A stretch of 64,000 bases of DNA from Ferruginibacter sp. HRS2-29. GTDB lineage: Bacteria > Bacteroidota > Bacteroidia > Chitinophagales > Chitinophagaceae. Within the stretch, counting starts at the first letter, position 1. The number at the start of each line of letters is the position of its first letter. Both the position numbers and the translations under genes were made by a program. Under the pieces are notes generated by a model that ran no database searches, was not told the origin of the DNA, and saw only the letters and a list, made by a program, of their open reading frames with translations. The stretch lies in contig NZ_RJUB01000123.1 of NCBI RefSeq assembly GCF_024343615.1, forward strand, positions 62,001 through 126,000, read 5' to 3'. Of the stretch, positions 7,706-59,937 are shown piece by piece.

Positions 7706-9388
7706 TCAGCTTAAATACTTGGCTACGATCGGCAATCTCCTTCCCACTCCAAATGCCTTCGGCGATACCCGGATGATCGGACAAAACTGGTTACGTTTAT
7801 ATTCATTCATATTTACCATTTTAAGAATGCGGTCTGTAATTGCAGCATCAAAGCCTTTTGCCTTGATCTCATCAGGCCCTTTGCTTTGCTCGATGTATTG
7901 ATAAAGTATTTTGTCGAGGATGCTGTAATCAGGCAGGCTGTCGCTGTCCTTTTGCCCCGGCCTTAGTTCAGCACTCGGTGGTTTGGTGATGATATTGACA
8001 GGTATGATCTCTTTTTCACGATTGATATATTTTGCCAGTTCAAATATCTGCAGTTTGTAACAATCTCCCAGCACACCAATACCGCCGGCCATATCGCCAT
8101 ATAGCGTTCCATAGCCGGTAGATAATTCACTTTTGTTGGACGTATTCAATAAGATATACCCGAATTTATTGGCGATCGCCATCAACAGGTTTCCGCGGGT
8201 ACGGCTCTGGATATTTTCTTCCGCTACGCTGAATGGAAGATCTTTGAAGATAGGTTTCAGTTCTGCCAGGAAAGTATCATAGATATTGCGGATCGGAACG
8301 ATGTCGTAAGGATTACCGAGATTGATGCTCAGTTGTTCAGCATCCTCCACCGAATGTGAGGTGGAGTATTCCGACGGCATCAGCACGGCCCGCACATTTC
8401 CCGCCCCCAGGGCTTCGCAGGCAAGCGCCAGGGTAACTGCACTGTCGATACCGCCACTGCTGCCAAGTATCGCTTTGGTGAAACCCATCTTTTTGAAATA
8501 ATCGCTGATGCCCATCACCAGTGCATCATGCACCTGGGCAATGTTCAATTTTTCTTCCAGGTTTTCGGGATTAAGGTCTTTATCCCTGATCACCTGCGCA
8601 GGTTCAATTATTGCCGCATCAATAGTACCATCATCGTTGAGGACGAAACTTTGCAGGTCTTCCTTAAAACTCAGCAACCTCCCGCAAAGATTGGCATCCT
8701 TGTCAAACACCAGCGAAGTGCCATCAAACACCACTTCGGTCTGGCTGCCCACACAATTGCAGTAAAACATCGGTATCCTGTATTTCAATACATTCGCTTT
8801 TACAGCACCTTTCCTGTCTTCGTCGTGTGTATAATCAAACGGTGAAGCGGAAAGATTGATCATCACATCCGGCGAGTGATTGATAAGGTTGTCCATCGGG
8901 CAATAGGTGTACAACGGGTTATCACCGAGGTTCCAGATGTCTTCACAGATCGTTACCGCCAGGCGTTTATTTTTAAACTCCACGATATTCCATTCTGTAG
9001 CAGCTTCAAAATAACGGTCTTCATCAAACACATCATAAGTAGGCAGGCATGTTTTATGGATGACCTGCCTGATCATTCTGTTTTCGAGAAAATAAGCTGC
9101 GTTAAACAGGTCTTTTCCCTTCACCGAAGGGTTCCTGTGCGGGGCTCCTACCAATACCGCAATACCATCGGCGTATTCTTTGATCGTGTTGATGGCGGTG
9201 TAACATTTATCTATAAAATCGTTGAAATATAAAAAATCACGGGGAGGGTAAGCGCAGATGCACAGCTCACTAAAAACAATAAGATCGCCACCCTGCACTT
9301 TCGCCTGCTGTATGGCTTCGATGATCTTACGCGTATTATCTTCAAAATTGCCCACATGATAATTTTGCTGGGCGAGAAATATTTTCAT
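7706..9388 (-). CDS. nadE: Glutamine-dependent NAD+ synthase
   Basis: The 560-residue enzyme makes NAD+ from deamido-NAD+, ATP and glutamine. The N-terminal nitrilase-type glutaminase has the Glu41-Lys112-Cys148 triad (FSELCI, HKTCLPTYDVF, VTICEDIWN). The C-terminal synthetase begins near 280 and has the pyrophosphate loop LGSSGGIDSA at about 309-317. Length fits the glutamine-dependent class. It is divergent from gldB, an arrangement I recall for other Bacteroidota, where nadE often neighbours gldB. It also complements nadC elsewhere in the window, which supplies the same pathway. Confidence 0.96.
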   Translation of the reverse strand: MKIFLAQQNYHVGNFEDNTRKIIEAIQQAKVQGGDLIVFSELCICAYPPRDFLYFNDFIDKCYTAINTIKEYADGIAVLVGAPHRNPSVKGKDLFNAAYFLENRMIRQVIHKTCLPTYDVFDEDRYFEAATEWNIVEFKNKRLAVTICEDIWNLGDNPLYTYCPMDNLINHSPDVMINLSASPFDYTHDEDRKGAVKANVLKYRIPMFYCNCVGSQTEVVFDGTSLVFDKDANLCGRLLSFKEDLQSFVLNDDGTIDAAIIEPAQVIRDKDLNPENLEEKLNIAQVHDALVMGISDYFKKMGFTKAILGSSGGIDSAVTLALACEALGAGNVRAVLMPSEYSTSHSVEDAEQLSINLGNPYDIVPIRNIYDTFLAELKPIFKDLPFSVAEENIQSRTRGNLLMAIANKFGYILLNTSNKSELSTGYGTLYGDMAGGIGVLGDCYKLQIFELAKYINREKEIIPVNIITKPPSAELRPGQKDSDSLPDYSILDKILYQYIEQSKGPDEIKAKGFDAAITDRILKMVNMNEYKRNQFCPIIRVSPKAFGVGRRLPIVAKYLS

Positions 9389-9480
9389 CTGTTACTCTTT
9401 AAATTTTGTGATACAAAGACCTTTGCTTATCCTGTTAAATCGCGTGCAAAAATCTCATTCCCTAAAAATGATTCTTCGCA

Positions 9481-9511
9481 AATTCGTGTAATTCGCTTTA
9501 ATTCGTGTAAT
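9481..9511. repeat. AATTCGTGTAAT-family intergenic repeat
   Basis: Two exact copies of AATTCGTGTAAT (9481-9492, 9500-9511) separated by TCGCTTT. The 31-bp unit is almost identical (one difference) to the one at 10677-10707 on the far side of gldB. It lies upstream of gldB in the nadE-gldB divergent spacer. Confidence 0.8.
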
Positions 9512-9547
9512 CAAAAATGCATCTTTGCAAAGTTAAATCATCTCCTT

Positions 9548-10561
9548 ATGCGCCTGTTATTTAGTTTGGTTGTGGCCTGTATTTTTTTTGCTTCCTGCAA
9601 TAGTAATAATACCCCCAATGTAGACAATGTAAAAGTTAATCTTACCACCGAGCGTTTCGATAAAGACCTGTTTGCGATGGATACTACCCGCATGGTTTCC
9701 GAACTCGACAGGCTGATGGCGAAATATCCTACTTTCGGCAAGACCTTTCTTACACAGATCATCAATGTAGATCCGCTGTGGTCATCAGATACGATTGCCA
9801 ATTATATCAAAAGTTTCATCGGCTCCTACCGGAACATTTACGACAGTTCGGAAAAGATCTTCGCCGATTTTTCAAAATATGAAAAGGAAATAAAGAAGGG
9901 TATGCAGTATGTAAAGCACTATTTTCCGGCTTATAAACTACCTTCAAAGGTATACACGTATATCGGCCCGCTGGACGGGACAGGCGATGGCCTGAATGAA
10001 GATGGATTCTGCATTGGCCTGCAGGCCCACCTGGGCGGCGATTTCAGCCTGTATAAAACTACCTGGGTACAGGAAACTTATCCGGATTATATGAGCAGGC
10101 GTTTTGAGCCATCCTATATCGCTGTCAATTCGATGAACAGGATCGTGGAGGATATGTTTCCCGAAAAAGGCAATGATGATAAGACGATGGTGATGCAGAT
10201 GGTGGAAAAAGGCAAGCGGCTTTATTTGCTGAGCAAATTTCTGCCGGCAACGCCCGAGTTCAAACTGATCGGTTATACCGAAAAGCAGCTTAAAGAAAGT
10301 TATGATCATGAAGCTTCGATCTGGGCTTTGTTTGTGCAAAACAATATGCTGCAGACCATCGATTACAATGTGATCAAAAACTACGTTGGTGAAGGGCCCA
10401 AAACTCCCGAACTGGGCGAAGCTTCGCCGGGTAATATCGGCTCATTTGCCGGATGGCAGATCGTAAAAAAATATATGGATAAACATTCCGATACACAATT
10501 GAAGGACCTGATGATGATGGATGCGGAGAAGCTGTTTCAGGATGCGAAGTATAAACCTTAA
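9548..10561 (+). CDS. gldB: Gliding motility lipoprotein GldB
   Basis: A 337-residue lipoprotein. ATG 9548 is chosen because it gives an immediate signal peptide (MRLLFSLVVACIFFASC) with lipobox Cys17; longer in-frame starts would place 60 odd residues ahead of it. The body matches the GldB pattern, including FDKDLFAMD near the N-terminus and the C-terminal stretch HEASIWALF...GEGPKTPELGEASPGNIG. GldB is needed for gliding in Flavobacterium; its exact role is unknown. The location next to nadE supports the call. The neighbouring gldC of flavobacteria is not seen here. Confidence 0.85.
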   Translation: MRLLFSLVVACIFFASCNSNNTPNVDNVKVNLTTERFDKDLFAMDTTRMVSELDRLMAKYPTFGKTFLTQIINVDPLWSSDTIANYIKSFIGSYRNIYDSSEKIFADFSKYEKEIKKGMQYVKHYFPAYKLPSKVYTYIGPLDGTGDGLNEDGFCIGLQAHLGGDFSLYKTTWVQETYPDYMSRRFEPSYIAVNSMNRIVEDMFPEKGNDDKTMVMQMVEKGKRLYLLSKFLPATPEFKLIGYTEKQLKESYDHEASIWALFVQNNMLQTIDYNVIKNYVGEGPKTPELGEASPGNIGSFAGWQIVKKYMDKHSDTQLKDLMMMDAEKLFQDAKYKP

Positions 10562-10566
10562 GATGG

Positions 10567-10707
10567 ATTACACGAATTAAAGCGGATTACGCGAATCAGC
10601 AGAGATAGAAGCGAATCATACAAACCATGCTAATGGAAGGATTTTAAATTAAGGAATGACCTTCTCAAATAAAGGTAATTCGTGTAATCCGCTTTAATTC
10701 GTGTAAT
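10567..10707. repeat. AATTCGTGTAAT-family inverted repeat between convergent genes
   Basis: The left arm (10567-10597) contains ATTACACGAATT followed by AAAGCGGATTAC. The right arm (10677-10707) contains the reverse complement, with two exact AATTCGTGTAAT copies. At least 24 bp pair perfectly. It separates convergent gldB and the desaturase gene and may serve as a terminator for both. Confidence 0.85.
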
Positions 10708-10712
10708 AAAAC

Positions 10713-11819
10713 CTAAGCTGCCTGCTGAGTTTCCAGCACTACTTTTTCAGGCTTTACCCCAAGTTGTCTCATCACACGGAAGTGAGAAGCCAGTGCTTCG
10801 GAGAAAGTTGGATATTGATTATAAGGCAAGCCGAATTCCTTACATTTTTGCTGAACGATCTTGCTGATCTCAGGATAATGTACATGGCTCACACGAGGAA
10901 AAAGATGATGTTCGATCTGGTAATTCAATCCGCCTACAAACCAGGAGATCACTTTGTTACCCATGGCAAAATTTGCGGTTGTTTTGATCTGGTGTTCCGC
11001 CCAGGCTGTTTCCAGGTGTTTGGTTTCATCCAGGGGAATGTGTTCAAATTCTGTATTTTCCACCACATGTGCCAACTGGAATACGAGCGATAAAGTCAGC
11101 CCCATAGCTGCATTCATTACCAGGAAACCCACCAGCCAACCCTGCCAGCCCCAAACATAAATCGGCAGCGCAATGAAAGTCACTGCATAATGCAATTTGG
11201 TCAGCCAGAAGATCACATGATTCTTCGCGGTCAATTTCCACGCTTCGGTGGTATAGATACGGCGGGTAAAATATTTGGTGAAATCCATAAAGAATATCCA
11301 GAAGATAGAAGATAATGCGTATACCGGTATCAGGTATAAATGCTGCACTTTATGGGCCGGTACCCATACCTGGCTTTCGCACTGGCGGATGATCGGGCTT
11401 TTAGCTATATCATCATCGATACCATCAATATTGGTATAGGTATGATGGATGATATTATGCTTTTGTTTCCAGAAATAAGAACTGGCTCCAAGCGCATTTG
11501 CCGAGAGACCGAGGAAATCATTTAACTTTTGATTAGGACTATAACTGCCGTGGTTTGCATCGTGCATCACACTAAAACCGATGCAGGCGCCTGTATAACC
11601 CAACACTACGCATAGCAACAAAGCAGGCAAAGCGCTCATATTTACCAGCATGAGAACGGCGTAAACTCCCAGCATCACGGAAGTCAAAACAATCGTTTTT
11701 GTAAAGAGACGCCAATCACCTGTACGTTCTATCTTATTATCTTTAAAATACGCATCAACACTGATTTTCAAGCTCGTGAAGAACTCATTATTCTTGTTGT
11801 TGAAAGTGATTTTTGCCAT
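10713..11819 (-). CDS. Membrane fatty acid desaturase (acyl-CoA/lipid type)
   Basis: A 368-residue di-iron membrane desaturase. The three histidine boxes are intact: HDANH (His86, His90), HNIIHH (His121, His125, His126) and QIEHH (Gln301, His304, His305). The Gln in the third box is typical of front-end and linoleoyl-CoA-like desaturases, but no cytochrome b5 domain is fused. Hydrophobic segments lie near 40-82 and 165-250. It inserts a double bond into acyl chains of membrane lipids. The position of the double bond cannot be told from sequence. It is transcribed alone. Confidence 0.9.
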   Translation of the reverse strand: MAKITFNNKNNEFFTSLKISVDAYFKDNKIERTGDWRLFTKTIVLTSVMLGVYAVLMLVNMSALPALLLCVVLGYTGACIGFSVMHDANHGSYSPNQKLNDFLGLSANALGASSYFWKQKHNIIHHTYTNIDGIDDDIAKSPIIRQCESQVWVPAHKVQHLYLIPVYALSSIFWIFFMDFTKYFTRRIYTTEAWKLTAKNHVIFWLTKLHYAVTFIALPIYVWGWQGWLVGFLVMNAAMGLTLSLVFQLAHVVENTEFEHIPLDETKHLETAWAEHQIKTTANFAMGNKVISWFVGGLNYQIEHHLFPRVSHVHYPEISKIVQQKCKEFGLPYNQYPTFSEALASHFRVMRQLGVKPEKVVLETQQAA

Positions 11820-21145: not shown

Positions 21146-21190
21146 TATTCGTGTAATTCGTGTAATTCGTGTAATTAGTTTAATTCGTGG
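21146..21190. repeat. Tandem GTGTAATTC array (AATTCGTGTAAT family)
   Basis: A 9-bp period array: three GTGTAATTC-type units (21151-21177) flanked by degenerate copies, giving two exact AATTCGTGTAAT 12-mers at 21155-21166 and 21164-21175. It has one arm only; no complementary arm was found in the spacer. Confidence 0.75.
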
Positions 21191-28412: not shown

Positions 28413-28487
28413 GTTTTGAAAGTTCAAAAGGTTCAAATGTTCAAAAGTTAAACCAACCTTTTGAACATTTGAACCTTTTGAACAATT
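28413..28487. repeat. Intergenic inverted repeat, GTTCAAAAG word
   Basis: The left arm (28413-28449) has GTTCAAAAG, GTTCAAATG, TTCAAAAG units. The right arm (28455-28487) has CCTTTTGAACATTTGAAC and CTTTTGAAC. Nearly the whole 94-bp spacer between YyaL and hemD folds into one hairpin. The same word occurs near 40.6 and 43.3 kb. Confidence 0.85.
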
Positions 28488-35480: not shown

Positions 35481-35547
35481 AATTACGAATTACGAATTAC
35501 GAATTACGACTGAACGAAACCTAATTCGTAATTCGTAATTCGTAATT
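35481..35547. repeat. Intergenic inverted repeat, AATTACG word
   Basis: The left arm (35481-35510) is four tandem AATTACG units. The right arm (35521-35547) is the complement, made of TAATTCG units. The two arms are separated by only about 10 bp, so the spacer between gpsA and rnc is essentially one hairpin. The same word bounds the 53.6-53.9 kb spacer. Confidence 0.85.
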
Positions 35548-36294: not shown

Positions 36295-36427
36295 ATTACA
36301 CGAATTTTCGCGAATTACACGAATTAGCGGAGATGTATTTTAAAGACATAAATTTAAAGACACGAATTTTAGTTCGAATTAAAAGAATTGAGTCGAATTC
36401 TAAACTCTAATCCCTAATCTCTAAACC
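36295..36427. repeat. Two repeat words in the rnc-fabF spacer
   Basis: ATTACACGAATT occurs exactly at 36295-36306 and 36314-36325 (AATTCGTGTAAT family). A second word CTAATCCCTAATCTCTAAACC (GATTAGGG family) covers 36401-36427. No full complementary arm was found. Both lie in the 250-bp spacer that separates rnc from fabF. Confidence 0.65.
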
Positions 36428-39205: not shown

Positions 39206-39532
39206 CTATTTCAATTTGTCGTTCTCTTTATGGCGTTCCGCATCGCGGATCGTTTTCTTTTCCATGTTTTTCTGTAATGCTTCGGTAAGGTTTACGCCGG
39301 TCTGGTTGGCCAGGCAGATCAGCACCCAAAGCACATCCGCCATTTCATCGCCAAGGTCTTTACCCTTATCGCTTTCTTTAAATGACTGCTCACCGTATTT
39401 GCGCACCATCAACCGGCTGAGTTCGCCCACTTCTTCCATGAGGATACCAAGGTTGGTGAGTTCGGAGAAATACCTGACACCGATGGTGTTGATCCATTGA
39501 TCGACGGAGGATTGGGCTTGCTGGATAGTCAT
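39206..39532 (-). CDS. MazG-like nucleotide pyrophosphohydrolase
   Basis: A 108-residue single-domain member of the MazG/NTP-PPase fold, a house-cleaning enzyme that hydrolyses nucleoside triphosphates to monophosphates. The metal-binding acidic set is visible: LMEEVGELSRLM near 30-40 and GDEMADVLWVLICLA near 70-85. The length suits a dimeric short MazG. It follows the YcxB-like gene by 32 bp. Substrate unknown. Confidence 0.85.
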   Translation of the reverse strand: MTIQQAQSSVDQWINTIGVRYFSELTNLGILMEEVGELSRLMVRKYGEQSFKESDKGKDLGDEMADVLWVLICLANQTGVNLTEALQKNMEKKTIRDAERHKENDKLK

Positions 39533-39537
39533 AATAT

Positions 39538-39582
39538 TTTTTTATTACACGAATTTTTCGAATTTCACGGATTACACCAATT
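39538..39582. repeat. Left terminal inverted repeat of the GxxExxY element
   Basis: A 45-bp arm that pairs with 40054-40098 with one mismatch (at 39578). It contains an exact ATTACACGAATT (39544-39555) and continues GAATTTCACGGATTACAC. The arms lie 471 bp apart and enclose exactly the GxxExxY gene. Confidence 0.9.
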
Positions 39583-39587
39583 ATCTT

Positions 39588-39962
39588 TTACAAAATTACT
39601 CTTTGCCAGGTTAATGAACGCTCTCCAAAATTTATCAGCAAGCCTAACTTCAATCCTGTTACAGCAAGATAACTCAATGTTTGTGCTTTATGAGCATCAA
39701 TGAGAACTGGAACAGATTTTATTTCTAACACTATCAAATCATTCAAAATAAAATCGGCGACGTAAGGATTTTTTAATTCGACATTTTTGTATTTGACAGC
39801 GAACCGTTTTTCCCTTTCATAAATAAATCCGTTTTCCACAAACTCAATTTCCATAGCATCCTTGTAGTTAATCTCTTTTAAACCCATGCCCAAATAACGA
39901 TGTATTGACATGCAAATGCCTATAATTTTAAAAGACTCTTCGGGATATAAAATACTGGCCAT
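39588..39962 (-). CDS. GxxExxY protein, PD-(D/E)XK nuclease-like
   Basis: A 124-residue protein of the GxxExxY family. The name-giving motif is GLKEINY (Gly27, Glu30, Tyr33). The nuclease-like core has Asp70 and Glu80-x-Lys82 (YVADFILNDLIVLEIKSV), which fits a PD-(D/E)XK active site. Members are frequent in Bacteroidota, usually of unknown function. Here the gene sits within a 45-bp inverted repeat, 5 bp inside the left arm and 91 bp inside the right, as though it were the cargo or driver of a small element. Its start is ATG 39962, and no intact neighbour in the same strand shares its transcript obviously. Confidence 0.85.
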   Translation of the reverse strand: MASILYPEESFKIIGICMSIHRYLGMGLKEINYKDAMEIEFVENGFIYEREKRFAVKYKNVELKNPYVADFILNDLIVLEIKSVPVLIDAHKAQTLSYLAVTGLKLGLLINFGERSLTWQRVIL

Positions 39963-40053
39963 TTCGAAACTACTTAAGTTCCGTAAACGTAGCCATTGAA
40001 TTGCTTATCAACAAAGGTTAAACAACAACAAACAATGCTTTTTTTCTGAAAAA

Positions 40054-40098
40054 AATTCGTGTAATCCGTGAAATTCGAAAAATTCGTGTAATAAAAAA
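40054..40098. repeat. Right terminal inverted repeat of the GxxExxY element
   Basis: The 45-bp arm is the reverse complement of 39538-39582 with one mismatch. It holds two exact AATTCGTGTAAT copies (40054-40065, 40081-40092). It ends two bases before the stop codon of dtd (40100-40102). Confidence 0.9.
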
Positions 40099-40099
40099 A

Positions 40100-40552
40100 T
40101 TACTCTTTATTCTTCGAATCTATCACTATCGTCACCGGTCCGTCATTCAGTAACGCCACTTTCATATCAGCACCAAATTCCCCGGTGAAAATTTTCTTCC
40201 CGAGATCATTTTCCAGTTGCCCGATAAATTTTTCGTATTTGGGTATCGCCACTTCACCTTTACTCGCTTTCAGATAACTCGGCCTGTTGCCTTTTTTGGT
40301 AGAAGCCTGCAGCGTAAACTGGCTGATAAGCAGGATATCGCCGCCATTTTCTTTTACAGAAACATTGGGCACTTTATTTTCATCGTCGAAGATGCGGAGG
40401 TTGGCGATCTTGTTGCTGAGCCATGCAATGTCCGTATCGTCATCAGCGTCTTCGATGCCGGCTAATACTAACAGACCATTATTGATGGAAGATTTTACCG
40501 CCCCATTGATGGAGACGGAAGCCGATGTTACCCTTTGTATCACTACTTTCAT
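40100..40552 (-). CDS. dtd: D-aminoacyl-tRNA deacylase
   Basis: DTD removes D-amino acids from tRNA. ATG 40552 gives the usual N-terminus MKVVIQRVTSASV; a start 18 bases upstream would add MNYFCF. The two active-site motifs are present: SQFTLQAS near residue 78 and NDGPVTIVID near the C-terminus (the NxGPVT motif). The 150-residue length is standard. Its 3' end abuts the right arm of the GxxExxY element, with 1 bp between. Confidence 0.94.
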   Translation of the reverse strand: MKVVIQRVTSASVSINGAVKSSINNGLLVLAGIEDADDDTDIAWLSNKIANLRIFDDENKVPNVSVKENGGDILLISQFTLQASTKKGNRPSYLKASKGEVAIPKYEKFIGQLENDLGKKIFTGEFGADMKVALLNDGPVTIVIDSKNKE

Positions 40553-40563
40553 GAAGCAAAAAT

Positions 40564-40683
40564 AGTTCAAAAGTTCAAGAGGTTCAAAAGGTTCAAAAGG
40601 TTCAAAAGTTCAAAAGTTCGAAAGTTCAAAATGTTCAATGATTCCTCAACCTTTTGAACTTTTGAACTTTGAACTTTTGAAAC
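40564..40683. repeat. Intergenic inverted repeat, GTTCAAAAG word
   Basis: The left arm (40564-40640) has about eight GTTCAAAAG-type units. The right arm (40648-40683) has the CTTTTGAAC complement. It fills almost the whole spacer between dtd and the phosphatase-superfamily gene. Confidence 0.88.
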
Positions 40684-41778
40684 CTACCTTAATGCGAGCG
40701 TTGGCAATATCGAACGCTGCTTCCCAAACTGTTCGCCGAACAGCCCCGCGATGGTTTGGGCAATTTGTTTCTGATAAAGCTGCCCCGGAGTTTTCACTTC
40801 GCCGCGAGGCTCAATATGTTTGCCCAGCAATACCAGCCATGCCTGCGAAGAACCTTTGATGAACGGCCCGTGGGATGTCCACTTATTATGCTGTCCGCGA
40901 CCATGATCGGTGGTGATCACAAACGTAGTGTTATTTTTATATCCCGGTGTACTCTGGGCCCAGTGCCACAATTCGGCGATAATATGATCCGCTTCATTCG
41001 CCTTCTGCAGGTAAGTGGCATAGTCTTTCGCGTGAGCATATTCATCCGTTTCGCCGAGGCCAAGGTATAATATCTTCGGCTTCTTTTTCTGAAGATATTC
41101 TTTCGCAGCAATGTAGGTCAGCATGTCCTGGCGGGTGCCCGGTTTTACATCCATATCGTCCTGCACTTTGTTGAACGCAGCCATACACGTAGAATCCGCA
41201 TGCCCGATATTTTCATAACCGCAATTCATTTCTATACCCGAGCGCTTTTCATTGAGCGCAAACGACAGTACATCCCATGAAGTAAAAATGCCGATCCTGC
41301 CTTTGTAAGGCTCCTTGCTTTCCAGAAATTCAAATACGTTGGTATTGGGATTGTATACCTTGTTGTTATTGGCGATCGTGATATCCGTAGTGCCGGTAAA
41401 CATTTCGTTGTAACCCGGATAAGACACCGCATAAATATTGGCCACATTCACGTTGTTATCAAATTCCCTATTGCCATATAGCTGCCCTTTTTTTGCCACG
41501 ACATTCCACATGAAGGGCATCAGTTTTTTACGCCTGGCTGTGGCGTCATCCGCCCAATACATCATATTGGCCATGGCTGTATCGGAAGTAAATTTTTCAT
41601 CGTTGATGATGGATCCTTCGGCACCGTCGAAGAGTTCCTGCCAGCGCAGGCCATCGATAGTGATGATGAAGACATTGCCGCTGGTGTCCGCCGGATGATC
41701 TGCCCTGAATTCTGTGCCACCGGCTTCGGGGAGTTGTGAAATACCTAACAAAAGGAAAAGGCTTAATAGTCGTTTCAT
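40684..41778 (-). CDS. Exported alkaline phosphatase-superfamily protein
   Basis: A 364-residue protein with a signal peptide (MKRLLSLFLLLGISQLPEAG) and an alkaline phosphatase-superfamily fold (sulfatase/phosphodiesterase type). The first metal-binding segment is VFIITIDGLRWQELFDGAEG, the central one LGLGETDEYAHAKDYATYL, and the C-terminal histidine motif is TTDHGRGQHNKWTSHG. The family is widespread in Bacteroidota as an uncharacterised exported enzyme acting on phosphate or sulfate esters. It lies between GTTCAAAAG repeats, so it is monocistronic. Confidence 0.85.
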   Translation of the reverse strand: MKRLLSLFLLLGISQLPEAGGTEFRADHPADTSGNVFIITIDGLRWQELFDGAEGSIINDEKFTSDTAMANMMYWADDATARRKKLMPFMWNVVAKKGQLYGNREFDNNVNVANIYAVSYPGYNEMFTGTTDITIANNNKVYNPNTNVFEFLESKEPYKGRIGIFTSWDVLSFALNEKRSGIEMNCGYENIGHADSTCMAAFNKVQDDMDVKPGTRQDMLTYIAAKEYLQKKKPKILYLGLGETDEYAHAKDYATYLQKANEADHIIAELWHWAQSTPGYKNNTTFVITTDHGRGQHNKWTSHGPFIKGSSQAWLVLLGKHIEPRGEVKTPGQLYQKQIAQTIAGLFGEQFGKQRSILPTLALR

Positions 41779-43287: not shown

Positions 43288-43416
43288 AACGTTCAACAGT
43301 TTAAAAGGTTCAAGAGTTCAAAAGGTTCAAGAGTTCAAAGTTCAAAACGTTCAGAAAGATCATACCGTTTGAATAACGTTTTGAACCTTTTGAACTCTTG
43401 AACTTTTGAACTTTTG
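43288..43416. repeat. Intergenic inverted repeat, GTTCAAAAG word
   Basis: The left arm (43288-43353) is built from GTTCAA, AAGGTTCAAGAG, GTTCAAAAC units. The right arm (43367-43416) is the complement (CTTTTGAACTCTTGAAC and others). Together they fill the spacer between the symporter and the 798-residue lipoprotein gene. Confidence 0.85.
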
Positions 43417-53644: not shown

Positions 53645-53941
53645 CAAATTACGAATTACAAATTACGAATTACGAATTAAGGAGGAGAAGATGGAAGGGG
53701 GAAAAGGAGCACAGATTTTAAAGGGATGAAGGGGATTGCACAGATTGTTTTTCACAAAGTGAAAAACGGAAATGCAGTTTATAAATCTTTAGGCTTTAAT
53801 AAAAATTACAATATTTATAAACTGGATTTCGGTTTTCTGCGAAGTAGAAAACAATCTGTGCAATCCCCTTCATCCCTTTGAAATCCGCGATCCACTCTCG
53901 CTTCGATCACATTCGTAATTCGTAATTAATAATTCTTAATT
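53645..53941. repeat. 305-bp spacer (53641-53945) folding as a nested hairpin
   Basis: Three nested inverted repeats. The outer arms are AATTACG words at 53645-53679 and 53911-53941. The middle arms, 53715-53751 and 53848-53884, are 37 bp with 2 mismatches (GGGATGAAGGGGATTGCACAG core). The inner arms, 53775-53786 and 53813-53824 (CAGTTTATAAAT), extend outward to about 24 bp with 2 mismatches. The whole region can fold into one stem. It contains one short open frame described separately. Confidence 0.8.
53726..53881 (+). pseudogene. 51-codon open frame with acetyltransferase-like piece
   Basis: ATG 53726 opens a 51-codon frame to a TGA at 53881, within the nested hairpin. The middle reads KNGNAVYKSLGFNKNYNIYK, similar to the C-terminal segment of GNAT acetyltransferases (YKSLGF). 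The rest of a GNAT domain is missing. It may be a fragment of a gene captured between the repeat arms. It could also be chance, because part of the codons is imposed by the inverted repeats. I do not assert that it is expressed. Confidence 0.3.
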
Positions 53942-55025: not shown

Positions 55026-55098
55026 TTAGCCGGGAAGACGGGAAGAAAACTCAAAATATCTCACAACATTCCTGCTTTCTTCCCGTCTTCCCGGCTAA
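55026..55098. repeat. 23-bp perfect inverted repeat between divergent genes
   Basis: The left arm 55026-55048 (starting TTAGCCGGGAAGACGGG) and right arm 55076-55098 are perfect complements with a 27-bp loop. No terminator is needed between divergent genes, so this is a free-standing palindrome of the spacer class. Confidence 0.85.
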
Positions 55099-59826: not shown

Positions 59827-59937
59827 TAATGGATAATGATACAATGGATAATGAATAATTTTCTCCAGAGGAAATTATTTCATGTAACTGGATAATTTTC
59901 AGATCAGACATATTATCCATTGTATCATTATCCATTA
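59827..59937. repeat. 26-bp perfect inverted repeat, ATAATGG word, in the thr operon
   Basis: The left arm 59827-59852 (TAATGGATAATGATACAATGG...) and right arm 59912-59937 are perfect complements. An inner hairpin AATAATTTTC/GGAAATTATT lies between them. It separates thrA from thrB inside one operon and ends 9 bp before the thrB start. Confidence 0.9.

Follow-up and report, generated by a model that had tools for sequence, protein, structure and literature searches.

How does a small gene with a nuclease fold come to lie between two inverted copies of a repeat that also recurs, without the gene, in the surrounding intergenic DNA? We addressed this question at a locus of Ferruginibacter sp. 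HRS2-29, within a stretch of 64,000 nucleotides that we refer to as the window (contig NZ_RJUB01000123.1, positions 62,001 to 126,000; all coordinates below count from its first letter). A first-pass annotation, made from the letters alone, had proposed that the block is the coding member of a family of repeats whose solo copies are spread through intergenic DNA.

A nuclease-fold gene between two inverted arms

The gene (39588-39962, minus strand) encodes a protein of 124 amino acids and is, as first annotated, the sole gene between the arms. The arms had been described as 45-nt reverse complements that differ at one position (39538-39582 and 40054-40098). This is correct, and the full inverted repeat is slightly larger, 52 nt with 94% complementarity: 39536-39587 (minus strand) on the 3' side of the gene and 40049-40100 (plus strand) on the 5' side. 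The arms consist of degenerate units of 9-11 nt (ACACGAATT, CACGGATT and TCGAATT) and not of one exact word. The 3' arm, with ACACGAATT-type units, adjoins the start codon of a gene that we take to encode a MazG-like pyrophosphohydrolase (39206-39532, minus strand), and the 5' arm adjoins the stop codon of a presumed dtd-like gene (D-aminoacyl-tRNA deacylase; 40100-40555, minus strand). Both genes served as synteny anchors.

The protein is a member of the GxxExxY/PDDEXK_3 family. In a profile search it passed the curated cut-offs of TIGR04256 (GxxExxY; 123.9 bits, cut-off 35) and PF13366 (PDDEXK_3; 112.1 bits, cut-off 22). At E <= 0.001 these two profiles alone were matched, and there was no HUH Y1 transposase domain. 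Asp70, Glu80 and Lys82, singled out in the first-pass annotation as PD-(D/E)XK-like, did not vary in any of three alignments, with 8, 26 and 48 sequences. With Glu30, also invariant across the 48, they form an intact catalytic core. The AlphaFold2 model (pLDDT 95.2, pTM 0.86) has its helices and strands in the core order expected of the PD-(D/E)XK fold. The best structural matches in the PDB (Foldseek) were SSO0001, which we take to be a Cas4, the Cas4 Pcal_0546 and the LHK exonuclease (LHK-Exo); E <= 0.001 was reached solely by four SSO0001 chains. Apart from a weak match to a Cas4b profile in PADLOC (E 9e-4), searches of Rfam, of the PDB by sequence and of PADLOC gave no better name for the element or the protein. 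The databases examined name GxxExxY genes by motif or fold only. Of 395 genomes sampled from the phylum, 186 have such genes.

Most GxxExxY genes are bracketed by inverted repeats

The window's own genome has nine profile matches to GxxExxY, and their flanks, read directly, show inverted repeats that differ from one another. The units are GCCGGGAAGACGGGAAG and the GCCGGGAAG type at L001, ACCACAAAGGCGCAAAG at L002, AACGCTGATTTT..CGCAGAT at L003, GCCACGAATGCACGAAT at L004, ACCGCAGAG..GCAGAG at L005 and ACACGAATT at L008. L007 scored below the threshold given below and has clear units upstream only, and L009 is a fragment. L005 and L006 are one element at contig ends with the same flanks, and L006 was dropped as a duplicate.

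We scored bracketing by aligning the 250-nt flanks of each gene to each other's reverse complement, with a threshold of >=27. Loci with a flank shorter than 100 nt were set aside (7 of 117 in relatives, 4 of 80 in a named set), adjacent matches of one broken gene were merged into a single locus (broken copies of GxxExxY genes do exist), and a below-cut-off match in G053 was left out. In relatives, 76 of the 110 usable loci reached the threshold. Among full-length loci 72 of 103 did so, leaving 31 with no arm pair above it. The named set was built with a single query (L065) and comprised the best 80 of 90 loci, mostly from Bacteroidota; 57 of its 76 usable loci were bracketed and 19 had no arm pair above the threshold. 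One of its loci (L288) is the query itself, so that the set is not fully independent and the new loci amount to 56 of 75. Records titled otherwise than Bacteroidota both passed (Kiritimatiellaeota L289, Leptospiraceae L293, Planctomycetota L315 and Tindallia L348) and failed (Lentisphaerae L312, Ignavibacteriae L321, and Balneolaceae L339, L343 and L346).

Shuffled flank pairs made a poor control. Their 99th percentile was 42 for GxxExxY and 90 for UPF0102 genes, inflated because related loci lie on opposite strands and share arm types. We therefore took UPF0102 genes and random positions as controls. UPF0102, presumably likewise a family of small nuclease-fold proteins, gave no bracketed locus among 30 drawn from 54 matches in the same relatives. 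Random positions in the window's own genome reached the threshold in 24 of 4000 cases, and three of these belong to L044 or the window element, both already known as elements.

The first-pass annotation had asked whether other GxxExxY genes are bracketed by the same repeats: most are bracketed, but mostly by different repeats that track the protein lineage. Repeats around GxxExxY genes were not described in the open-access literature among the matches listed, an absence that is no proof. At one further site, judged by eye, GxxExxY elements of two genomes lie beside the same downstream gene start; one (L003, in G000) has a clear arm pair and the other (L095, in G008) scored below the threshold.

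Arm sequence and protein lineage

We refer to the arm sequence of a given lineage as its dialect. Protein identity predicted arm similarity. Starting from 108 full-length loci, we removed five with short flanks and 31 with no scored repeat, and compared the remaining 72 in pairs drawn from different genomes and different sites. Across 2432 pairs rho was 0.178 (permutation sd 0.044), and none of 2000 permutations was as high. The same held for between-family pairs alone (n=1211, rho 0.213, 0/2000) and had held in a first pass of the test (51 loci, 1210 pairs, rho 0.308, 0/2000). Similar arms (score >=25) were found in 3% of the 690 pairs with protein identity below 30%, and in 75% of the 12 pairs above 70%. 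Paralogues within one genome had similar arms in 5% of 81 pairs.

In a tree of the 108 proteins, clades mix families. One group, for example, consists of L001, L058, L072, L094 and L098; the four members with a listed arm pair all have (GC)CGG(G/T)AAG-type arms. Arm sequence follows the lineage of the protein and not the host genome. That close relatives tend to have similar arms and distant ones different arms points to an undescribed kind of small, repeat-scattering mobile DNA.

The window also contains words of the L001 dialect, in an inverted pair GCCGGGAAGA / TCTTCCCGGC at 55029-55095. The two are 57 nt apart, start to start, a gap too short for a GxxExxY gene.

Solo copies of the window's repeat

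The window has exactly 12 copies of the word AATTCGTGTAAT, as had been counted, where 0.02 are expected. Searched against the full genome of 5.07 Mb, it gave 226 copies, and the reversed word gave none. The 12 copies had been placed in six spacers, which is right if each side of the GxxExxY gene is counted separately; otherwise they lie in five intergenic regions. They had also been said never to fall within a gene. Crude gene calls agree (0 of 12), but these calls missed gldB, whose longest open reading frame (9356-10561) would span the words at 9481-9511. We have taken gldB to start near 9548, judged by eye.

Solo copies take several forms. A single arm with two words lies at 9481-9511 (plus strand). 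A pair of arms with no gene between them (10557-10596, minus strand, and 10678-10717, plus strand) fills the junction of what we take to be gldB and a desaturase gene. Four 9-nt units, two of them exact words and two with 1-2 mismatches, form an array at 21146-21184 (plus strand), and an arm array with two exact words and two with 2 mismatches lies at 36295-36389 (minus strand). In a sample of the window's genome, ten of the 11 gene-less solo clusters with words on both strands run minus then plus, with facing words 56-134 nt apart, and one runs in the reverse order. Of 33 multi-unit arms, 22 had the outer end, and one the inner end, no more than 25 nt from a crude gene edge.

The solos have unrelated interiors (0 of 45 pairwise alignments scored >=27). 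A 77-nt part of the interior at the gldB-desaturase junction, searched against its own genome, matched itself alone, and several interiors resemble ordinary terminators by eye. We found no target-site duplication: 0 of 79 framed spacers had a direct repeat scoring >=16, a score that 1.9% of permuted pairs reached. A lone suggestive duplication at the gldB-desaturase junction (AAACCTTAAG / AAACCTAAG) was rejected, not being supported by the wider set; its CTTAAG part is a palindrome and thus merely extends the inverted repeat. The two arms of a copy matched each other weakly better than arms of different copies for the solos and the window element (326 of 20000 permutations as high). In this set the own arm scored highest in its row for 4 of 11 copies (signed-rank p=0.12), and it did so for three of the six dtd-mazG elements.

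The first-pass annotation had likened the solos to MITEs and their parent elements. The repeat family is supported; the unrelated interiors and the missing target duplication do not fit that likeness.

Inverted framing extends beyond this one dialect. In the own-genome sample (L178-L217 and the window), 79 of 371 intergenic regions of 90-900 nt had inverted-repeat edges, in various dialects, as against 58 of 5000 mismatched edge pairs. The regions were delimited by crude gene calls (longest ATG open reading frames, with gldB missed). Framing was found in 33 of 73 convergent and 9 of 80 divergent regions. The window dialect has many solos and several others have fewer: the commonest arm 11-mer occurred in the sample 88 times for L008, ten for L004, eight for L005, six for L009, four for L007 and three for L002.

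Site occupancy in relatives

We compared the dtd-mazG and gldB-desaturase sites with those of relatives (30 loci fetched per site). In 27 of 29 relatives dtd lies beside mazG within the locus. Five of these 27 have a GxxExxY element in the spacer, one of them broken. The other 22 spacers are unoccupied and 11-128 bp long. The empty sites that the annotation had asked for are present, which favors its reading: these 22 spacers have no gene, and 21 of them have no arms, judged by the exact arm word. One of the 21 has a word with one mismatch, which may be chance. The remaining spacer (L220, in G021) has an exact arm word in a remnant, AACACGAATTCGTGG, with no gene; this is either a deleted element or a solo that precedes insertion. 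The 128-bp unoccupied spacer of L230 has a repeat of a different kind. The five labelled occupied copies, the window's included, do not form one clade: their distribution takes 3 changes, at least 2 of them forced by supported branches. Therefore, the dtd-mazG site has probably been hit more than once.

At the second site, 24 of 29 relatives allowed gldB and the desaturase gene to be read next to each other. In 19 of these 24 the two stop codons are separated by 0-6 bp, and in three by 35-38 bp. In the window's genome the junction is 151 bp long and consists of the two arms and their interior. At this one compared site the solo pair is an insertion; on the simplest reading, the arms and interior would have come in together. 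Two relatives have other sequence here, one of 328 bp with inverted-repeat edges and one of 176 bp without them. The 328-bp insert (L385, in G002) contains a near-tandem triplication of TTTAG-type units and sequence like the 3' end of gldB, and is another dialect's sequence at the same junction.

Copy number and a model for spread

We compared genomes by whether they have a GxxExxY gene of the AATTCGTG dialect, assigned from its flanks by a loose word test. AATTCGTGTAAT was commoner in the 11 genomes with such a gene (0, 0, 0, 1, 2, 7, 7, 10, 31, 36 and 226 copies) than in the 48 without (0-3 copies, except for 5, 5, 13 and 30; Mann-Whitney p=0.0018). There are exceptions both ways, and they weigh as much as the trend. 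G002, G038 and G058 have the gene and no copy of the word, and G018 (30 copies) and G025 (13) have many copies and no detected gene of the dialect. In these cases the cognate gene may have been lost or may be absent from an incomplete draft assembly, or the gene may be dispensable for movement.

The block is probably a small mobile unit, in which a minimal PD-(D/E)XK nuclease gene lies between arms that are its own recognition sites. This reading draws on four patterns seen in the sequences: the bracketing, the covariation of arm and protein, arms and their contents at sites that are empty in most relatives, and the excess of the repeat word where a cognate gene is present. Against it weigh the loci with no arm pair above the threshold, the exceptions in copy number, the unrelated solo interiors, the missing target duplication and the weak matching of arms within a copy. 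We infer from these patterns that the nuclease is catalytically active, recognizes the arms and moves them. A minimal Cas4/RecB-like nuclease would recognize the arms of its own dialect, probably when their DNA is exposed, as in a folded single strand, and would help them to be copied or inserted into gaps between genes. Its action would be in cis for the unit that has the gene, and in trans for single arms and for pairs with no gene. GxxExxY lineages differ in the dialect of their arms.

Alternatively, the nuclease might parasitize repeats that another agent spreads: GxxExxY would cut solos of its dialect, and repair from a gene-bearing copy would insert the gene, as in homing. Such spread would account for the shared dialect of gene-bearing and solo units, for dialects that track the protein, for the single-arm remnant at the dtd-mazG site in L220, and for the high copy numbers in G018 and G025. 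However, 21 of the 22 unoccupied dtd-mazG spacers have no exact arm word to serve as a target, and several dialects have few solos (3-10 copies of the arm 11-mer, against 88 for L008). We consider homing unlikely.

A second protein family with the same architecture

Genes of the four-helix-bundle family TIGR02436, which we take to be the 23S rRNA IVS protein family, are bracketed in the same way by other units. At the same threshold, 29 of 38 loci were bracketed (30 from relatives, at most one per genome, and 8 of the 9 in the window's genome; L048 overlaps L047 and was left out). Their arm units are degenerate and differ between copies (L040-L047 in the window's genome, L148-L177 in relatives). 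The relation of dialect to protein was weaker here (rho 0.176 for 372 pairs from 29 loci, a value reached in 24 of 2000 permutations).

Dialects of these genes also occur in the window. Hairpins of GTTCAAAAG units, the dialect of L047, lie at 28422-28483, 40564-40685 and 43288-43416. Inverted arrays of AATTACGAATT, the dialect of L041, lie at 35481-35547 and 53647-53927, and the 11-mer of this dialect has 93 exact copies in an 864-kb sample of the genome. Inverted pairs of TAATGGATAAT / ATTATCCATTA, about 85-100 nt apart and in the L042 dialect, lie at 1273-1368 and 59827-59937.

The occurrence of one architecture with two unrelated proteins suggests either that the class is defined by its arms instead of by enzyme chemistry, or that the chemistry comes from a third factor. 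TIGR02436 is not known as a nuclease, and the nuclease may therefore not be the mover. It could also be that the arms act in RNA, pairing in the transcript for excision by RNase III so that the units are tolerated in operons, with movement a separate matter. The shared architecture of the four-helix-bundle family favors this, as does the Coxiella IVS, which is described as having an S23 open reading frame, terminal inverted repeats that form a 28-bp stem, cleavage by RNase III, and suggested mobility (PMC4990558). A role of the S23/IVS protein in mobility is an idea cited there from Ralph and McClelland in 1993. But arm mismatches are balanced, with 44 G.U and 43 A.C in 51 GxxExxY loci and 48 and 39 in 29 four-helix-bundle loci, giving no sign of a constraint for pairing on the sense strand, and framed spacers are richest between convergent genes and not divergent ones. 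We regard an RNA-level role as quite improbable. Equally doubtful is a now immobile, host-domesticated system of terminator-like or architectural sites with GxxExxY as processing enzyme, which would suit solos with outer ends close to gene edges and framing densest at convergent regions, but not the patchy presence at orthologous sites, the broken gene copies or the protein clades that mix families.

Returning to the reading of the block as a mobile unit, it is possible, at somewhat less than an even chance, that such units form a class of mobile DNA of their own, in which GxxExxY proteins and, in parallel, S23/IVS proteins determine and spread inverted arms of their own that diverge fast ("nuclease-dialect elements"). 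Such a class would explain why about a fifth of the sampled intergenic regions of this genome have inverted framing, and would disperse without HUH, DDE, tyrosine or reverse-transcriptase chemistry. It would suggest where the short intergenic repeats of these genomes came from and, if true, add a new class of repeat-dispersal enzyme. The pairing of protein lineage and dialect supplies cognate and non-cognate substrates.

Comparison with known systems

The element resembles known systems in parts. Like a MITE and its parent insertion sequence, it is bounded by inverted repeats and has gene-bearing and gene-less copies; unlike them, it has neither a transposase between its arms nor a target duplication, and its copies have no common interior. 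Like the 23S rRNA IVS, it has a small open reading frame between terminal inverted repeats, as do the TIGR02436 genes of this genome. It differs from the IVS in that the reading frame has a nuclease fold, the neighbors of the window element are protein genes (dtd-like and mazG-like) and its site is not within rRNA (Rfam gave no match in the window at gathering scores), and the balanced G.U and A.C mismatches give no signature of RNA pairing. We place the element in neither group.

The best structural matches and the weak Cas4b profile match link the protein to Cas4 and the lambda-exonuclease (RecB-like) nucleases. The hallmark of Cas4 is a four-Cys iron-sulphur cluster. The window protein has only 124 residues and one Cys, and so is without such a cluster. 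We rejected Cas4 proper on this ground.

The closest parallel is with REPIN-RAYT (TnpA-REP, or REPtron) systems, which are defined by an HUH Y1 transposase and whose repeat is a palindrome with a GTAG-type tag. Here the fold is PD-(D/E)XK and not HUH Y1, the arms are tandem degenerate units of 8-11 nt instead of one GTAG-tagged palindrome, and the interiors, up to the length of a gene, are unrelated. In both, a single-gene enzyme lies between short inverted repeats that also occur in many gene-less intergenic copies, with cognate repeats around the gene and scattered as solos. The REPIN-RAYT mechanism is expected to leave no target duplication, and none was found here in the 79 framed spacers either. 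The TnpA-REP enzyme and its repeat co-evolve (PMC8266576), and here the arm dialect tracks the protein. The element would work like REPIN-RAYT but has no HUH domain, and we therefore do not assign it to that family. It is best read as a REPIN-RAYT-like system in which a PD-(D/E)XK nuclease takes the place of the HUH transposase.
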